Assembly: GCA_946415785.1 (NCBI GenBank)
Contig: CAMKTV010000004.1
Coordinates: 1-49,663, forward strand
DNA: 49,663 bases
Reading direction: 5' to 3'
Source of the DNA: an uncultured Solobacterium sp.
Lineage (GTDB): Bacteria > Bacillota_I > Bacilli_A > Erysipelotrichales > Erysipelotrichaceae
Made by a program: the position numbers and the translations under genes
Shown here: piece by piece, positions 33,609-41,506 of the stretch
Layout: every line of letters begins with the position of its first letter
Position numbering within the stretch: the stretch's first letter is position 1
Notes under the pieces: generated by a model
Told to the model about the DNA's origin: nothing
The model's database searches: none
What the model saw: only the letters and a program-made list of their open reading frames with translations

Positions 33609-35240
33609 ATGAGCTATCAAGTTTTATATCGCACTTACAGACCTAGCAAATTCTCTGAAGTAGTTGGTCAAGAATACATTATTAAGATATTAAAAAATGC
33701 CATTAAATCTAATAAGATTGCCCACGCATATCTTTTTGCTGGACCTAGAGGAACCGGCAAAACTACTATCGCAAAATTATTTGCCAAGGCAATAAATTGT
33801 GATGATTTTAAAGAAGAAGCATGCGAAAAATGTAACAACTGTCTTGCCTTAAAAGAAAACAATCATCCAGATATAATTGAACTTGATGCTGCCAGTAACA
33901 ATGGTGTCGACAATATAAGAGAAATTGTTGAACAGGTAAATTACGCACCAATTTTAGGTAAATATAAAGTATATATAATTGATGAAGCACATATGTTATC
34001 AGACAGTGCTTTTAATGCGTTACTAAAAACATTAGAAGAACCTCCAAAACATGTCATCTTCATCTTAGCGACAACTGATCCAGAAAAGATAATTCCAACT
34101 GTTCAATCAAGATGCCAAAGATTTAATTTCTCAAAAATTAATAAATATCATATGAAGAAAAAGATGATTGAGATTTTAAAAAATGAAGGTCTTGAATATG
34201 ATGAAGAAGCAATTGAAGAAGTTGCTGTCATGGCAGAGGGTGGCATGAGAGACGCTTTATCAATTCTTGAACAGATGCTTTCTTATAATGAAAAAGGTGT
34301 CTATAAAGAAGATGTTTTAAAAGTATTTGGCTTATCTTCAATAGATGAAAAAATCAAGATTTTAAAGGAGATTCATCAAGGAAATATTGCCCAGGCTATT
34401 AATCATCTACGTGATATATACCAAAACGGCGGAGATTTAAAACATTTAACAATTGATCTGTTAGAAGTGATAAAAGAAGCTCTCATTTTTTCTGATGATG
34501 GACAAGAAAAATTATTAAATAAATTATCAAGCATACAGGCACAAGAACTGTTAAATATCGCTAATATTAAACAGCTATTAAATGATATTGATTGCCTAAA
34601 AGATGTTTTAGTTAATTCACGTTTCAATCAAAATTTCCTGTCATATTTAGAATTGGCATTTATTAAGATGGCTAATCAGACAGAAATAAAACAGGAAAAA
34701 GAAATCAAAACTACACAAAAAGAAACAGTTAAACAAACAAGCACAATTAAAGAAAAAGCTGAAGAAATAAAAAAAGAAGTTGTTCAAGAAGTTAAGGAAG
34801 ATTTAGATTATATTGCTTCATTATTATTAAGTGCTAAAAAGAGTGAAAAGGAACACGATGCGATAATTTATAATCGTTTGGAATTATATAAGAATGAAGT
34901 TGATAAAAGAAAACTTTATGAACTGTTAATCGACACTGAACTTTTCGCCAGCAATAAAGATGCTATCGTTGTCTTGGCTGATAAAGCACAAGCCAACATC
35001 ATTAATTCAAAAGATGTAAAAGACGAATTATATGATTTCTTAATTAAAGAATTTTCAATAAATAAAATTATTTATGCATTAGATAAAAATAAGAGAAAAG
35101 AAGTAATTGAAATCTATCACAAATTAGCGAATGAAAAAAAGGCCAGTTCACCAGTTGTTGAAAAACCAGAAATAAAAAAAGAAATGACTAATGAAGAAAA
35201 ATTAAAAGAACTATTTGGTGATAGTCTGAAGGTTGAATAA
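33609..35240 (+). CDS. dnaX: DNA polymerase III subunit gamma/tau
   Basis: The 543-residue clamp loader has Walker A GPRGTGKTT, a four-Cys zinc site CEKCNNC region after CDDFKEEAC, the AASNNGVDNIRE block, Walker B YIIDEAHML and sensor ATTDPEKI. The C-terminal third is charged, as in tau. I see no A-rich slippery heptamer that would make a short gamma form. The message is probably leaderless (see promoter). recR follows with a 1-bp gap. Confidence 0.96.
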   Translation: MSYQVLYRTYRPSKFSEVVGQEYIIKILKNAIKSNKIAHAYLFAGPRGTGKTTIAKLFAKAINCDDFKEEACEKCNNCLALKENNHPDIIELDAASNNGVDNIREIVEQVNYAPILGKYKVYIIDEAHMLSDSAFNALLKTLEEPPKHVIFILATTDPEKIIPTVQSRCQRFNFSKINKYHMKKKMIEILKNEGLEYDEEAIEEVAVMAEGGMRDALSILEQMLSYNEKGVYKEDVLKVFGLSSIDEKIKILKEIHQGNIAQAINHLRDIYQNGGDLKHLTIDLLEVIKEALIFSDDGQEKLLNKLSSIQAQELLNIANIKQLLNDIDCLKDVLVNSRFNQNFLSYLELAFIKMANQTEIKQEKEIKTTQKETVKQTSTIKEKAEEIKKEVVQEVKEDLDYIASLLLSAKKSEKEHDAIIYNRLELYKNEVDKRKLYELLIDTELFASNKDAIVVLADKAQANIINSKDVKDELYDFLIKEFSINKIIYALDKNKRKEVIEIYHKLANEKKASSPVVEKPEIKKEMTNEEKLKELFGDSLKVE

Positions 35241-35241
35241 A

Positions 35242-35841
35242 ATGTATCCAAATAAATTTGAAAGATTAATTGAAATATTTGAAAGATTACCAGGCGTTGG
35301 AAACAAGACAGCGCAAAGATATGCGTTTGGACTTTTAGATTATTCTAAAGATGAAATTGAAGATTATATAAATGCTTTAAAGGGCATTCAGGAAATTAAA
35401 AAATGTAAATGTTGTGGATTCTTAGCTGATGATGACCTTTGTCCAATCTGCAAAGATGAGAGTCGTGAAAAAGAAACAATCATGGTTGTTGCTTATCCCC
35501 AAGATTTAATGGCCATTGAAAAAACAGGAATCTTTAAAGGAACATATCATGTGTTAAATGGTTTATTATCTTCAACAAAAGGAATCTTTCCTGAAGATAT
35601 AGATATCGACAATCTTTTAAAAAGAATAGATGAAAATGTAAAAGAAATAATCATTGCGACTTCACCTACAATGGATGGTGAAATGACCGCATTATATTTA
35701 GATAAGATTTTAAAAAATAAAAACATCTTAATCACAAGATTAGCCCATGGCCTACCAATGGGAGCTAGCCTTGATTATGCGGATGATTTAACTCTAATTA
35801 AAGCGTTAGATAATCGTAGAGAAATAAAAGAAAATGACTAA
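35242..35841 (+). CDS. recR: recombination protein RecR
   Basis: The protein has 199 residues from the ATG at 35242; AAGG lies 9 nt upstream. A TTG at 35233 is possible but overlaps the dnaX stop. Domains in order: helix-hairpin-helix (LPGVGNKTAQRYAF), Cys4 zinc site (CKCCGFLADDDLCPIC), and Toprim (ETIMVVAYPQDLMAIE, then ATSPTMDGEMTALYL). RecR works with RecO and RecF to load RecA. Its end overlaps the CARF nuclease gene by 8 nt. Confidence 0.96.
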   Translation: MYPNKFERLIEIFERLPGVGNKTAQRYAFGLLDYSKDEIEDYINALKGIQEIKKCKCCGFLADDDLCPICKDESREKETIMVVAYPQDLMAIEKTGIFKGTYHVLNGLLSSTKGIFPEDIDIDNLLKRIDENVKEIIIATSPTMDGEMTALYLDKILKNKNILITRLAHGLPMGASLDYADDLTLIKALDNRREIKEND

Positions 35842-36961
35842 AAGACTTTTAAAAACATTTGAAGATGACAACAATCTCATCAATGTCTTAGTTCCTCTAA
35901 CTATTGATGTTGATGAAGTTTATTTTGTCTATCACCATGATGTGAAGTCGCAAGAAATCAAAAACTGTTCAAAGATTATTAATAAATATAAAAATATAAA
36001 AATATATTATAAAAGAGTTTCTGAAGAAGAAGTCAGCACACTAATAAATGAAGATACAATTGTTGATGTAAGTGCTGCTAAATATCTTTCAATTGTCTTA
36101 TATGAAGTAGCTTTAAAAAATAATCTGCAAGTCATCTATTATGATGAAGAAGAAAGAGTCATTAAACAGTATAAGGATCATAAAATTATTGCCAAGGCAA
36201 TATTTAAACTCACAATTGAAGATATTATTAAGCTTGGTGGAGGCAAGATTACTTCAAATCTGCATAAAGCACTTACAAATAGAGAAGATATTGAATTAAT
36301 ATATAAGACAGTAGATAGATCAAGAAATGAATATTCTCAATTCACATCTTTTGTCTCTCGCATCAATTCATATATCAGCGATTCCCCTTATTTAAATAAT
36401 ATCTGTCATTTAAATGAAAAGACAATTAAAAAAATTCTTTGTGATGAACAATATCAAAACTATAAAGATCTGGGTCTATTTGAAATTAAAGATAATGATT
36501 TAATCTTTTTTAATAAAAACATCAAAGATGCATTTGGTGTAAGTGGAACATTTTTGGAAAATTATATCTATCATAAATTATTGGATTCCAAATTATTTGA
36601 TGATGTTAAGATGTCTAATATCATTGAATTTAATGATGAACAACATAAATATCCAGTCAATTGTGAAATAGATGCTTTAGTACTTAAAAACAATGAATTA
36701 TTATTTGTATCAATTAAATCTAATAAAATAGAGAAAACAGATCTAAATGAAATAAAAGTTCACAACGTCATGTTTGGCAACAAACAATCTAAAGCCGTAG
36801 TTTGTATCAATAGTGATATATCAAATCAAAAACCAAGTGTTTATGCGAAAGCTGAAGAATTAGGCTTATATGTAATAGACAATACAGACTTTATTAATCA
36901 AAACTTAGCTAATAAATTCAATGATATTATTGAAGGAAATTATGTTTACGAAAGGATTTAA
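35834..36961 (+). CDS. CARF and PD-(D/E)XK nuclease protein, Card1/DUF1887-like
   Basis: The 375-residue protein has two parts. The N-terminal 115 residues look like a CARF (Rossmann-type) sensor: VDEVYFVYHHD, then IVDVSAAKYLSIVLYEVALK where CARF proteins carry the TGGTK-type loop, and LQVIYYDEEE. From about 236 a restriction-like fold follows: SGTFLENYIYHKLL, NCEIDALVLKNN (Asp280) and LFVSIKSNK (Lys295); the acidic residue two before the lysine is Ser293. The layout is that of DUF1887/Card1, nucleases switched on by cyclic oligoadenylate. No CRISPR array or Cas gene is visible here. It overlaps recR and lies 5 nt before the PUA-like gene. Confidence 0.65.
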   Translation: MTKRLLKTFEDDNNLINVLVPLTIDVDEVYFVYHHDVKSQEIKNCSKIINKYKNIKIYYKRVSEEEVSTLINEDTIVDVSAAKYLSIVLYEVALKNNLQVIYYDEEERVIKQYKDHKIIAKAIFKLTIEDIIKLGGGKITSNLHKALTNREDIELIYKTVDRSRNEYSQFTSFVSRINSYISDSPYLNNICHLNEKTIKKILCDEQYQNYKDLGLFEIKDNDLIFFNKNIKDAFGVSGTFLENYIYHKLLDSKLFDDVKMSNIIEFNDEQHKYPVNCEIDALVLKNNELLFVSIKSNKIEKTDLNEIKVHNVMFGNKQSKAVVCINSDISNQKPSVYAKAEELGLYVIDNTDFINQNLANKFNDIIEGNYVYERI

Positions 36962-36966
36962 AAATT

Positions 36967-37839
36967 ATGTCAGCCATTGCTTACATCACCGATTCTAAAC
37001 TGTTACAGCTGCATCGTTTAAATGCACATAAAACAATGAACTTTTGGCGATTATCCACAAAGACTACTTTTTCAAATTTTGGTAAAGATGATTTGGTTTT
37101 CTTTTTATCAAAAGATAAAGAATTAATGAAAGACAAAGAAAAAGGAATCGTCGGCTTTGGAAAACTTCAAGACATCTATTCTTATTCTCCAAAAACAATG
37201 TGGGAAAAATTTGGTCAAGAAAATGGCTATAACACATACGAGGAATTTAAAGAAGCAATTGAAAAAGTTGCGAAAGACCATCTTCTTCCAAAAAAGATTT
37301 CTTCATTTTATCTGACAAATATTGTCTTCTTTCAATCACCAATTTATTTAAGTGAATTAGATATCAATATATCAAATAAAGTTGAATCATACGTTTATAT
37401 TAAACCTGAAGAATCAGTGATTAAGTTACTTGAATATGGAAAAGAAGCTGTCGATATTTGGTCAGGTGATTTAGATATTCAAGATATAGTTGACGATGAA
37501 CAGTTAATATATGCGGTTAAATTGGCACATAAAGAAATTGGCGATTTTAAGATGGGTGATAAAAAACTTAAATCCGCAAACAGAATCATGAAAAGAATTA
37601 TCCAGAACAATCCTGGCTGTAAATTCATTGGAAAATCAAAATTGGATGTCTGCTTAATAAATAAAAAAGATATCCTGATTGTTTTGTTCAATAATGCAGA
37701 AACTGATAAACGTTTATTAATTGGACAGGCACAGTTATATAAAAAATATATTAAGAAATATTATCCAAATCCATATAAAATATATTTCAAGACTAGTGAT
37801 AATAATAAAGAATTAAATGATTTAATAAATAACGTATAA
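36967..37839 (+). CDS. PUA/EVE-like domain protein with a possible degenerate nuclease end
   Basis: The 290-residue protein shows in its first 150 residues the pattern of PUA-superfamily (EVE/ASCH-like) domains: MNFWRLSTKTTFSNFGKDDL, GIVGFGKLQDI, MWEKFGQENGY, NIVFFQSPIYL. Such domains read modified bases or RNA and often sit beside restriction nucleases. The end (about 215-275) has KSKLDVCLINKKDILIVL then LIGQAQLYKKYIKK, resembling a PD-(D/E)XK core (Asp227, and the Q-x3-Y helix) that lacks the E-x-K pair. It follows the CARF nuclease gene by 5 nt, so both act together in all likelihood. Function unknown. Confidence 0.5.
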   Translation: MSAIAYITDSKLLQLHRLNAHKTMNFWRLSTKTTFSNFGKDDLVFFLSKDKELMKDKEKGIVGFGKLQDIYSYSPKTMWEKFGQENGYNTYEEFKEAIEKVAKDHLLPKKISSFYLTNIVFFQSPIYLSELDINISNKVESYVYIKPEESVIKLLEYGKEAVDIWSGDLDIQDIVDDEQLIYAVKLAHKEIGDFKMGDKKLKSANRIMKRIIQNNPGCKFIGKSKLDVCLINKKDILIVLFNNAETDKRLLIGQAQLYKKYIKKYYPNPYKIYFKTSDNNKELNDLINNV

Positions 37840-37848: not shown

Positions 37849-38184
37849 ATGAAAGATAAATATCAAAAAGTTGGTTTAAATTATGATTTAATATCAAACA
37901 AATTCGTTGATATTAATGAATACGAAGAGATCGTGAATACATATTTAAGCGATCCTTTTTTTGAAGAAATAAAAAGCTATCTAGAAGATGAAGATTATGC
38001 CCTAGCTAAAGATGCGGTAAAAGGTTTATTTATTTTAGCTCAAGAATTACAGTTATTTCCTTTATATATAGCATTATTAGAAATTTATGAAGATATTGAC
38101 GCCGAGTTTTATCAAGATGTAATGAAGCATTATGATGAAATGATTGTTGTATATAATCGCATCAAAGGAGTTTTTAATGTTTGA
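37849..38184 (+). CDS. HPt-like four-helix protein lacking the phospho-histidine
   Basis: The 111-residue acidic, helical protein resembles histidine phosphotransfer domains: YLSDPFFEEIKSYLEDEDY, then AKDAVKGLFILAQELQLFPL and LLEIYEDI, the spacing of AH-x-LKG and the later L-E helix. The histidine position reads Asp55. It therefore cannot take phosphate on His; a scaffold or binding role is possible. Its last 8 nt overlap the mnmG start, whose ribosome site AAAGGAG lies in its final codons. The family call is by pattern only. Confidence 0.45.
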   Translation: MKDKYQKVGLNYDLISNKFVDINEYEEIVNTYLSDPFFEEIKSYLEDEDYALAKDAVKGLFILAQELQLFPLYIALLEIYEDIDAEFYQDVMKHYDEMIVVYNRIKGVFNV

Positions 38185-40062: not shown

Positions 40063-40437
40063 TTATTCCAAATGATTGTTAATCCAATTTAATAAATCAT
40101 CATAATTTGCTTGATGTTTTGCGATTTTTAAAAAAATATTCGCAATATCATCATCTTCAAAAACTAAGATAAAATTGTTATATTCTAGAAAAATGTTCAT
40201 AGAAACAGCACCAGTTCTTTTGTTTCCATCAATAAAGGCGTGGTTACACGCTATGCCATAGCCAAGCCTCGCAGCTTTTTCAATAATGGTAGGATACAAA
40301 TCCTTGCCATCAAAGGTAATAAAAGGAGCTGCTAACGCAGACTCCAACATTCCTTCATCTATTATCCCTTGTATGCCACCAGTTTCGTTTATTATTGTTT
40401 CGTGTAATTCAATAATTTTATCTTTTAATGTAATCAA
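40063..40437 (-). CDS. doc: Doc/Fic-family toxin (death-on-curing)
   Basis: The 124-residue protein has the Doc motif HAFIDGNKRTG with His66 and Asn72/Lys73/Arg74, at the same residue number as phage P1 Doc. Doc phosphorylates EF-Tu and stops translation when not bound by its antitoxin. It overlaps the antitoxin gene by 4 nt. The motif is complete, so the toxin is likely active. It lies tail to tail with mnmG. Confidence 0.93.
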   Translation of the reverse strand: MITLKDKIIELHETIINETGGIQGIIDEGMLESALAAPFITFDGKDLYPTIIEKAARLGYGIACNHAFIDGNKRTGAVSMNIFLEYNNFILVFEDDDIANIFLKIAKHQANYDDLLNWINNHLE

Positions 40438-40682
40438 TACTTAGCTAGTTTTTCTAAAGCCCCTCGATGTTCTGTTAAGATTTTGTTCGCAATTCTATCG
40501 AACTTTTCTTCATCTTCTATTTCTAAATCACAAGGACATGTTTTCAAATCCACAACTAAAAATCTTGGTTTATTGTTCTTAAAAATAATAACCTGGCCCA
40601 TTTCTTCAGTCATTTTAGCTACTTTTGAAAAATTTTGATTAGCTTCCGTCATAGAAACAATATTCTTTGTGTCAACCACCAT
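40434..40682 (-). CDS. phd: Phd/YefM-type antitoxin
   Basis: The 82-residue protein has the Phd N-terminal DNA-binding pattern: IVSMTEANQNFSKVAKMTEE, then VIIFKNNKPRFLVVDL. The C-terminal part, disordered when free, wraps the Doc toxin. A 10-bp perfect inverted repeat lies 32 bp upstream, a likely operator for the antitoxin or antitoxin-toxin complex. AAGAGGTA serves as ribosome site. Confidence 0.88.
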   Translation of the reverse strand: MVVDTKNIVSMTEANQNFSKVAKMTEEMGQVIIFKNNKPRFLVVDLKTCPCDLEIEDEEKFDRIANKILTEHRGALEKLAKY

Positions 40683-40714
40683 AGAACAAATACCTCTTTA
40701 TGTAATTATATTAC

Positions 40715-40740
40715 AATATAGGATGAATATATCCTATATT
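40715..40740. promoter_or_regulatory. operator-like palindrome of phd-doc
   Basis: AATATAGGAT (40715-40724) and ATCCTATATT (40731-40740) are perfect inverted copies, 6 bp apart, 32 bp upstream of the antitoxin start. Typical of a Phd operator. Confidence 0.65.
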
Positions 40741-40773
40741 TGAGATATCATTTGTCGATTGACTTATGATCCT

Positions 40774-40890
40774 CCTTTCTAGAAAGCCAAGACAAGCAGA
40801 TGAAGTATTTAAGGGATGACTTGCTCCTGTCCCTCTATTTCTTTATTGACATGAAAAGCTAAAAATTCCTCACATTTTTTAAAAAAATTT
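40774..40890. repeat. upstream cassette A of phd-doc
   Basis: The stretch starts with CCTTTCTAGAA inside a CTTTCTAGAAAG palindrome (40775-40786), and ends with AAAATTCCTCACATTTTTTA (40862-40881). The same two end motifs, about the same distance apart, flank the DinJ-YoeB pair. Further right, TATCGAGGA and TCCTCGATA (40934-40952) form a 9-bp palindrome. The 40741-40990 gap has no gene that I can see. Confidence 0.5.
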
Positions 40891-40990
40891 AAATATTTAT
40901 TTAATTAATAAATAAAATACCAAAGAAATCATATATCGAGGATTCCTCGATAGTTGAATTCAATGATTAGAATAAAAAAAGAGATAAATA

Positions 40991-41254
40991 TTATTTATCT
41001 CCGTAATGTGAACCACATTGAATAATTAGAATATTACCACCTTCTATTTTGTATATCAGACGGTTCTTTTCAACAATTCTTCTGCTCCAATAACCCGCAA
41101 AATTACCTTTTAGTGGCTCAGGATGCCCTATACCAGAATAACCATTTCGATCGATATCTTTAATTAGCTGCAAGATCTTAGTTAAAATTCGCTCGTCTTG
41201 ATCCATCCAGTATTCAAATTCTTCACACGATGCATCAGTCCATATTTTATCCAT
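40991..41254 (-). CDS. yoeB: YoeB-family mRNA-interferase toxin
   Basis: The 87-residue protein has the RelE/YoeB pattern with PEPLKG and YWSRRIVEKNRLIYKI. All catalytic residues of E. coli YoeB are present at the same numbers: Glu46, Arg65, His83 and Tyr84. It cuts ribosome-bound mRNA. It follows the antitoxin gene by 3 bp. Such a short tight fit and intact site suggest an active toxin. Confidence 0.93.
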   Translation of the reverse strand: MDKIWTDASCEEFEYWMDQDERILTKILQLIKDIDRNGYSGIGHPEPLKGNFAGYWSRRIVEKNRLIYKIEGGNILIIQCGSHYGDK

Positions 41255-41257
41255 TAA

Positions 41258-41506
41258 TTAGATAACATTATGTATAGTTCCGCCGGTTCTTTCCATTTCT
41301 TCCATACTTTTGCGAAGACGTTCTTGGTTTTCTTCACTATAAAATGGGTCTATTGCGACATCAAAAGGGATTCTTTGTTCCTTAACAACTTTAGTCGCAA
41401 ACATTGTATATGCGGCTGTTGCGGTCAAACCTAACTCTTTACAGGTTTTTTCCATGTCTTCTTTTAATTTTTCGTCCATTCTAAAATTCACAATTTTTGT
41501 TGCCAT
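41258..41506 (-). CDS. RelB/DinJ-type antitoxin
   Basis: The 82-residue protein has a ribbon-helix-helix start (TKIVNFRMDEKLKEDMEKTC) followed by GLTATAAYTMFATKVVKEQRIPF, typical of RelB/DinJ antitoxins, which bind toxin with their acidic C-terminus and repress their operon. Here a DinJ-type antitoxin is paired with a YoeB toxin instead of its usual YafQ; such swaps are known. TAGGAG precedes the ATG. Confidence 0.88.
   Translation of the reverse strand: MATKIVNFRMDEKLKEDMEKTCKELGLTATAAYTMFATKVVKEQRIPFDVAIDPFYSEENQERLRKSMEEMERTGGTIHNVI

Follow-up and report, generated by a model that had tools for sequence, protein, structure and literature searches.

The described proteins closest to the nuclease studied here are Can2, Card1 and VC1899. 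Can2 and Card1 are activated by cA4; Can2 is an antiviral effector that contacts cA4 through S19, T42, K99 and Y118, and it has been superimposed, by its nuclease domain, on DNA-bound EndoMS (PMC7969007). Orphan members of the group, which have no type III CRISPR, have also been described before, VC1899 of Vibrio cholerae being an example. This protein has Asp, Asp, Arg and Val at the four contact positions, shows weak RNase activity only and is not regulated by cA4 (PMC7969007); since it is weakly active, some members of the family may have little activity. The target and trigger of such orphans have been a question since the release of the VC1899 structure in 2004. CARF homologues are abundant outside CRISPR-Cas (PMC12669027), and RNA ends with a 2',3'-cyclic phosphate have been proposed as the ligand for RtcR and for CARF proteins linked to CoCoNuT systems (PMC11090510). 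EVE domains, in turn, are specificity modules of modification-dependent restriction (PMC7641849). Our search of the open-access literature found no paper tying CARF to recR, dnaX or the EVE family described below.

The window, which is the whole stretch of 49,663 nucleotides that was analysed, contains a CARF nuclease gene in the order tadA, small unknown ORF, dnaX, recR, CARF nuclease, EVE-like gene, 111-residue unknown and mnmG. The genes of interest are as follows.

33609..35240, plus strand: dnaX (DNA polymerase III gamma/tau), matching Pfam DNA_pol3_delta2 (E 2e-52) and DNAX_ATPase_lid
35242..35841, plus strand: recR, matching TIGR00615 at 227 bits (cut-off 162.55)
35834..36961, plus strand: P0001, CARF plus PD-(D/E)XK nuclease, 375 residues, assigned from profiles, an AlphaFold2 model and fold alignment
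36967..37839, plus strand: P0002, 290 residues, with an N-terminal ASCH/EVE/YTH (PUA superfamily) domain, assigned from an AlphaFold2 model and fold alignment
37849..38184, plus strand: P0003, 111 residues, of no known family, without a match in Pfam, NCBIfam, PADLOC or PHROG

The ATG of P0001 at 35834 precedes the end of the recR stop codon at 35841, giving an overlap of 8 nt, and a gap of 5 nt separates the end of the P0001 stop at 36961 from the P0002 ATG at 36967. On re-reading the sequence, the coordinates, overlap and gap given in the original prediction proved exact. No prominent internal promoter or terminator was found in the operon, where promoter-like sites are fewer than in shuffled sequence. 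P0003 is kept between the EVE gene and mnmG in the close relatives of the window and in genus g70 (homologues L081, L102, L111-L113), and it is possibly a member of the operon outside the CARF-EVE pair proper. Many relatives have a YbaB/EbfC gene (Pfam YbaB_DNA_bd; e.g., L061 4220-4516) between dnaX and recR, which is absent there in the window (35240-35242) and in its close relatives L081, L082 and L102. Downstream of mnmG, the minus strand of the window (40063-41506) carries two toxin-antitoxin pairs, Fic/Doc with Phd/YefM and YoeB with RelB.

P0001 is a member of the Card1/Can2/DUF1887 fold family, with a CARF Rossmann domain (residues ~1-125), a linker (~126-149) and a C-terminal PD-(D/E)XK domain (~150-367) containing the E-x-D pair and the lysine. 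A CARF-like sensor and a PD-(D/E)XK-like core had been read by eye, and both are borne out by profiles and by the predicted structure. The PADLOC profile CARF4--CARF_PDDEXK covers residues 4-364 (E 1.8e-18), and a profile built from 11 family sequences matches the solved Can2 structure 7BDV (E 2.6e-5) as well as 8BAO (E 4.8e-4). With P0001 as the lone query, phmmer returned no solved relative; a profile was needed to find one. The AlphaFold2 model (mean pLDDT 89) aligns over its full length in VIA-align with VC1899 (Z 29.8), Can2 (27.4), Cdn1 (27.2) and Card1 (24.9), so that the comparison suggested at the outset, with Card1, Can2 and VC1899, gave a whole-length match to all three. The Pfam family PF09002 (Card1 endonuclease) reaches 20.6 bits on P0001, below its cut-off of 26.4, and is matched by 25 of 25 aligned homologues (best E 4.9e-8), with CARF_Card1 matched by 12.

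Across all 49 homologues, which come from 10 groups and range from close to distant, six residues of the nuclease domain do not vary: E242, E278, D280, S293, K295 and E306. E278 and D280 fall on the catalytic E276 and D278 of Can2 in the profile alignment (Can2 residues from PMC7969007). The Glu of the ExK motif is absent. The serine previously noticed in place of the usual acidic residue, Ser293, aligns with the Glu of the ECK motif in both Can2 and VC1899, and because it is invariant (49/49) it is a trait of the family and no sign of decay. Judged from sequence, the exchange of Glu for Ser could alter catalysis.

The second protein of the pair, P0002, was modelled with a pLDDT of 83. Residues 1 to ~165 adopt an ASCH/EVE/YTH-type PUA fold, with alignments to ZmASCH (Z 13.3), the McrB EVE domain (6N0S, 9.8), YTHDC1 (~8.5) and YqfB (8.3); the PUA-like beta-barrel behind the initial PUA/EVE-like call is thus recovered in the model. 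A C-terminal alpha/beta domain follows (~170-290), for whose fold no match was obtained, the VIA-align rows spanning about 1-178 only. P0002 matches no family above threshold in Pfam or NCBIfam, and 6 of 24 members of its family match Pfam EVE (PF01878; best E 0.0053), P0002 not being one of them. By analogy with related folds, the domain suggests recognition of a modified base or of RNA. The EVE family occurs in 203 of 316 genomes of the order, usually as a single copy, and the CARF family in 95. In most of the neighbourhoods read, EVE follows dnaX-recR, with fhs (formate-tetrahydrofolate ligase) or another gene intervening in several; recR is out of view near EVE in L062, L071 and L076. In genera without CARF, fhs can lie between recR and EVE. 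We take EVE to be the longer-standing neighbour of recR, present nearly throughout the family, and CARF to be an extra member between them.

The named loci belong to metagenome-assembled genomes of Erysipelotrichaceae from rumen and gut, of which two carry the label Solobacterium. The order dnaX-recR-CARF-EVE is present in 30 of the 36 genomes of the window's genus and in three further genera; the genera with CARF at dnaX-recR and EVE directly behind are g1 (the window's own), g18, g55 and g70. The survey of the recR-CARF-PUA order that the original prediction had called for therefore shows an arrangement recurring across four genera, which is more than chance would give. EVE lies immediately 3' of CARF in 44 of the 45 genomes whose contig allows the test (27 of 28 in g1, 4 in g18, 2 in g55, 9 in g70 and 2 in g76). 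In the sole exception, G017, another reading frame follows CARF, and EVE begins a separate contig. The g76 pair (L116 4803-8867, L117 4982-9046) lies away from recR and is divergent from a UmuC/DinB-type polymerase gene, and this locus is possibly a mobile or SOS-linked cassette. A short unidentified ORF follows the polymerase gene in g76. A distant CARF group, with members in g51, g20, g26, g56 and a single genome from another family, is scattered and shows no linkage to EVE; standalone nucleases of this distant kind (L118-L127) are common in g51, mostly without RAMPs. Among 395 sampled genomes of the wider class, one further weak match was found outside the family.

The nuclease gene could be a hitch-hiker that gains steady expression from its operon position and is functionally unconnected to both recR and EVE. 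The unrelated fhs, which in sister genera also stands between these two, would fit this explanation, as would the many genomes that have EVE and no CARF. However, such an arrangement would not account for EVE standing directly after CARF in nearly every testable genome, including those of g76 at a different locus, and we regard it as very unlikely.

The contact with recR itself is variable. The 8-nt overlap is found in 19 of 27 loci; fhs separates recR from CARF in g70, L084 and L106; CARF is missing from the recR-EVE order of G003 and G023; and in G019, where EVE and dnaX are present, no CARF was detected. The fhs gene lies at 4317-5975 in L084, 3343-5004 in L110 and 682-2343 in L106. Pairwise CARF distances in 33 genomes correlate with those of EVE (r 0.92), RecR (0.86) and DnaX (0.93), and in the tree each genus with at least two rows forms one group. 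The dN/dS values of near pairs, 0.06-0.14, resemble those of RecR and DnaX, dS being high there and the ratios accordingly rough. The P0001 gene is vertically inherited and under purifying selection. The view that it encodes a chromosomal nuclease of the dnaX-recR operon stands insofar as the gene is co-inherited and selected, with the correction that CARF is an additional member, sometimes missing or separated by fhs. An origin from a mobile element or phage was considered and rejected, the g76 homologue being absent from plasmids and phages and the family from viral contigs.

The overlap with recR, the co-inheritance with RecR and DnaX and the housekeeping-like dN/dS would all suit a constitutive DNA repair nuclease, in which a ligand-free CARF domain would serve dimerisation or DNA docking and which would work with RecR or EVE to nick or trim DNA where forks stall. 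The superposition of the Can2 nuclease domain on DNA-bound EndoMS (PMC7969007) points the same way. Yet a repair role does not follow from the operon neighbourhood alone. Against such a nuclease, related genera have EVE or fhs after recR, fhs precedes CARF in the loci given above, the g76 pair does not adjoin recR, and no CARF gene is seen in G003, G019 and G023. The CARF ligand pocket, moreover, is conserved, with Y102 and D104 invariant. On balance, we consider this explanation rather unlikely.

Vertical inheritance and slow evolution speak against the possibility of an anti-phage effector held at a safe chromosomal site. Here an oligonucleotide made during infection by an enzyme other than Cas10, cyclic or linear, would unleash indiscriminate cleavage and dormancy, and EVE would flag modified phage nucleic acid. 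Several precedents speak for it, namely the antiviral role of characterised relatives such as Can2 (PMC7969007), the EVE specificity modules of modification-dependent restriction (PMC7641849) and the Can1/Can2-like CARF nucleases of CoCoNuT operons outside CRISPR (PMC11090510), as does the UmuC-type polymerase gene adjoining the g76 pair. The gene is not mobile, however; neither plasmids and phages (for the g76 homologue) nor viral contigs (for the family) contain it, and no synthase gene adjoins the nuclease. Such a function appears quite unlikely.

No type III CRISPR had been seen beside the nuclease in the window, and this observation holds beyond it, for the window's own genome and for the genus. 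RAMPs were found in none of the 36 genus genomes; among the 61 other genomes with CARF, three have them, all from g51, and these carry both RAMPs and a CARF nuclease. No convincing Cas10 was detected in the genus: Cas10-palm matches occur in seven of its genomes, all below the curated cut-off, and an E. coli control gives weak matches as well, which suggests general cross-matches to nucleotide cyclases (GGDEF-like). A strong Cas10 palm match was obtained in 12 genomes, none of which has the nuclease at the threshold of P0001. Cas1 is present in 2 of the 36 genus genomes. Because the window's own genome is 88% complete, the argument is carried by the genus-wide count. The possibility of a type III CRISPR system elsewhere in the host was ruled out by the RAMP and Cas10 searches in the own genome and the genus. 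Since most host genomes are without type III CRISPR, the nuclease would either respond to some other signal or need none. Among other sources of signal, mCpol was found in 0 of the 36 genus genomes and a SMODS CD-NTase (CBASS-like) in 2 (G001 contig 7, G027 contig 125). A c-di-AMP cyclase domain is present in 31 of the 36, providing one cyclic adenylate.

The CARF pocket was compared with that of Can2 by sequence alignment. Can2 S19, T42, K99 and Y118 align to E10/D11, H34, K83 and Y102 of P0001, two of the four contacts being kept. Position 83 is Lys in 20, Arg in 12 and Thr in 1 of 33 sequences, Tyr102 is found in 33 of 33, and S19 and T42 are replaced in the family by Asp/Glu and His. As aligned, the pattern is mixed, with Lys and Tyr as in Can2, an acidic residue as in VC1899 and a new His. 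Conservation at the pocket positions exceeds that of the CARF domain on average (p 0.00045); these positions were picked by hand by analogy with Can2 and include some structural core residues. These features favour a putative living ligand site with changed specificity. It is conceivable that P0001 is left over from a type III system that has disappeared, the cA4 response having been kept and its source lost, given the common family with the cA4-activated Can2 and Card1 and the match of K83 and Y102 to K99 and Y118. The replacement of the other two contacts argues against this, as do the strong purifying selection and the active sites that stay invariant across four genera without type III CRISPR, and a relic seems extremely unlikely.

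We propose instead that P0001, like VC1899, is an orphan CARF nuclease that works independently of CRISPR, gated by a ligand other than Cas10-made cA4 and paired with the EVE/ASCH protein, and we consider this probable by a small measure. If the protein works as Can2 does, a pair of CARF domains would build one shared ligand pocket, and occupancy of this pocket would open the two PD-(D/E)XK domains, so that DNA, and/or RNA, could be nicked or cut. A nucleotide or the end of a nucleic acid, of host or infection origin, is a more probable ligand than cA4 from Cas10; candidates would be c-di-AMP, RNA ends with a 2',3'-cyclic phosphate or another oligonucleotide. The EVE/ASCH partner, whose contact with the nuclease may be physical or functional, could recognise or act on a modified base or RNA, thereby providing the target of the nuclease or helping to make the ligand. 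The pair may act in replication stress or in phage defence. More speculatively, replication or RNA damage in Erysipelotrichaceae might give rise to a nucleotide or oligonucleotide that would be new as a CARF ligand and that the EVE/ASCH protein of the recR operon makes or reads, with the CARF nuclease acting on it as a chromosomal checkpoint. We think such a housekeeping signalling pathway rather improbable; if it is true, CARF sensing works in core DNA metabolism too, apart from defence.

The genes described here form a large, vertically inherited and selected set whose partner gene stays the same and whose operon hardly varies; in the genomes that carry them the known cOA sources, Cas10 and mCpol, are absent and CD-NTases are rare. 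The set narrows the search for non-CRISPR CARF ligands, and the EVE/ASCH partner and recR offer a genetic handle.

Compared with known systems, P0002 shares an N-terminal PUA-type fold with ZmASCH, the McrB EVE domain and YqfB; it differs from ASCH/EVE/YTH proteins in its extra C-terminal domain, in falling below the Pfam EVE cut-off and in residing in a dnaX-recR operon. The 2xCARF D-ExK proteins associated with CoCoNuT are likewise Can1/Can2-type CARF nucleases outside CRISPR (PMC11090510), but they have two CARF domains and belong to McrBC restriction superoperons, whereas P0001 has one and lies in a housekeeping operon. With Can2 and Card1 (7BDV, 6XL1), P0001 shares the CARF plus PD-(D/E)XK architecture, the aligned Glu/Asp pair and, by alignment, the Lys and Tyr of the cA4 site. 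It differs in the lack of type III CRISPR in the genus, the Ser in place of the ExK Glu, the two changed cA4 contacts of four and the vertical inheritance. P0001 is of the DUF1887 family by fold and is not an ancillary effector of type III CRISPR. VC1899 (PDB 1XMX), an orphan DUF1887 protein, has the same full-length fold (Z 29.8, 349 residues), the ExD catalytic pair and an acidic residue near the position of Can2 Ser19; identity is 14%, and VC1899 has ECK for S-x-K and Val for Tyr102. We know of no recR-EVE operon that contains VC1899. In its fold and in having no type III CRISPR partner, P0001 belongs with the VC1899-like orphan class (orphan status of VC1899: PMC7969007).
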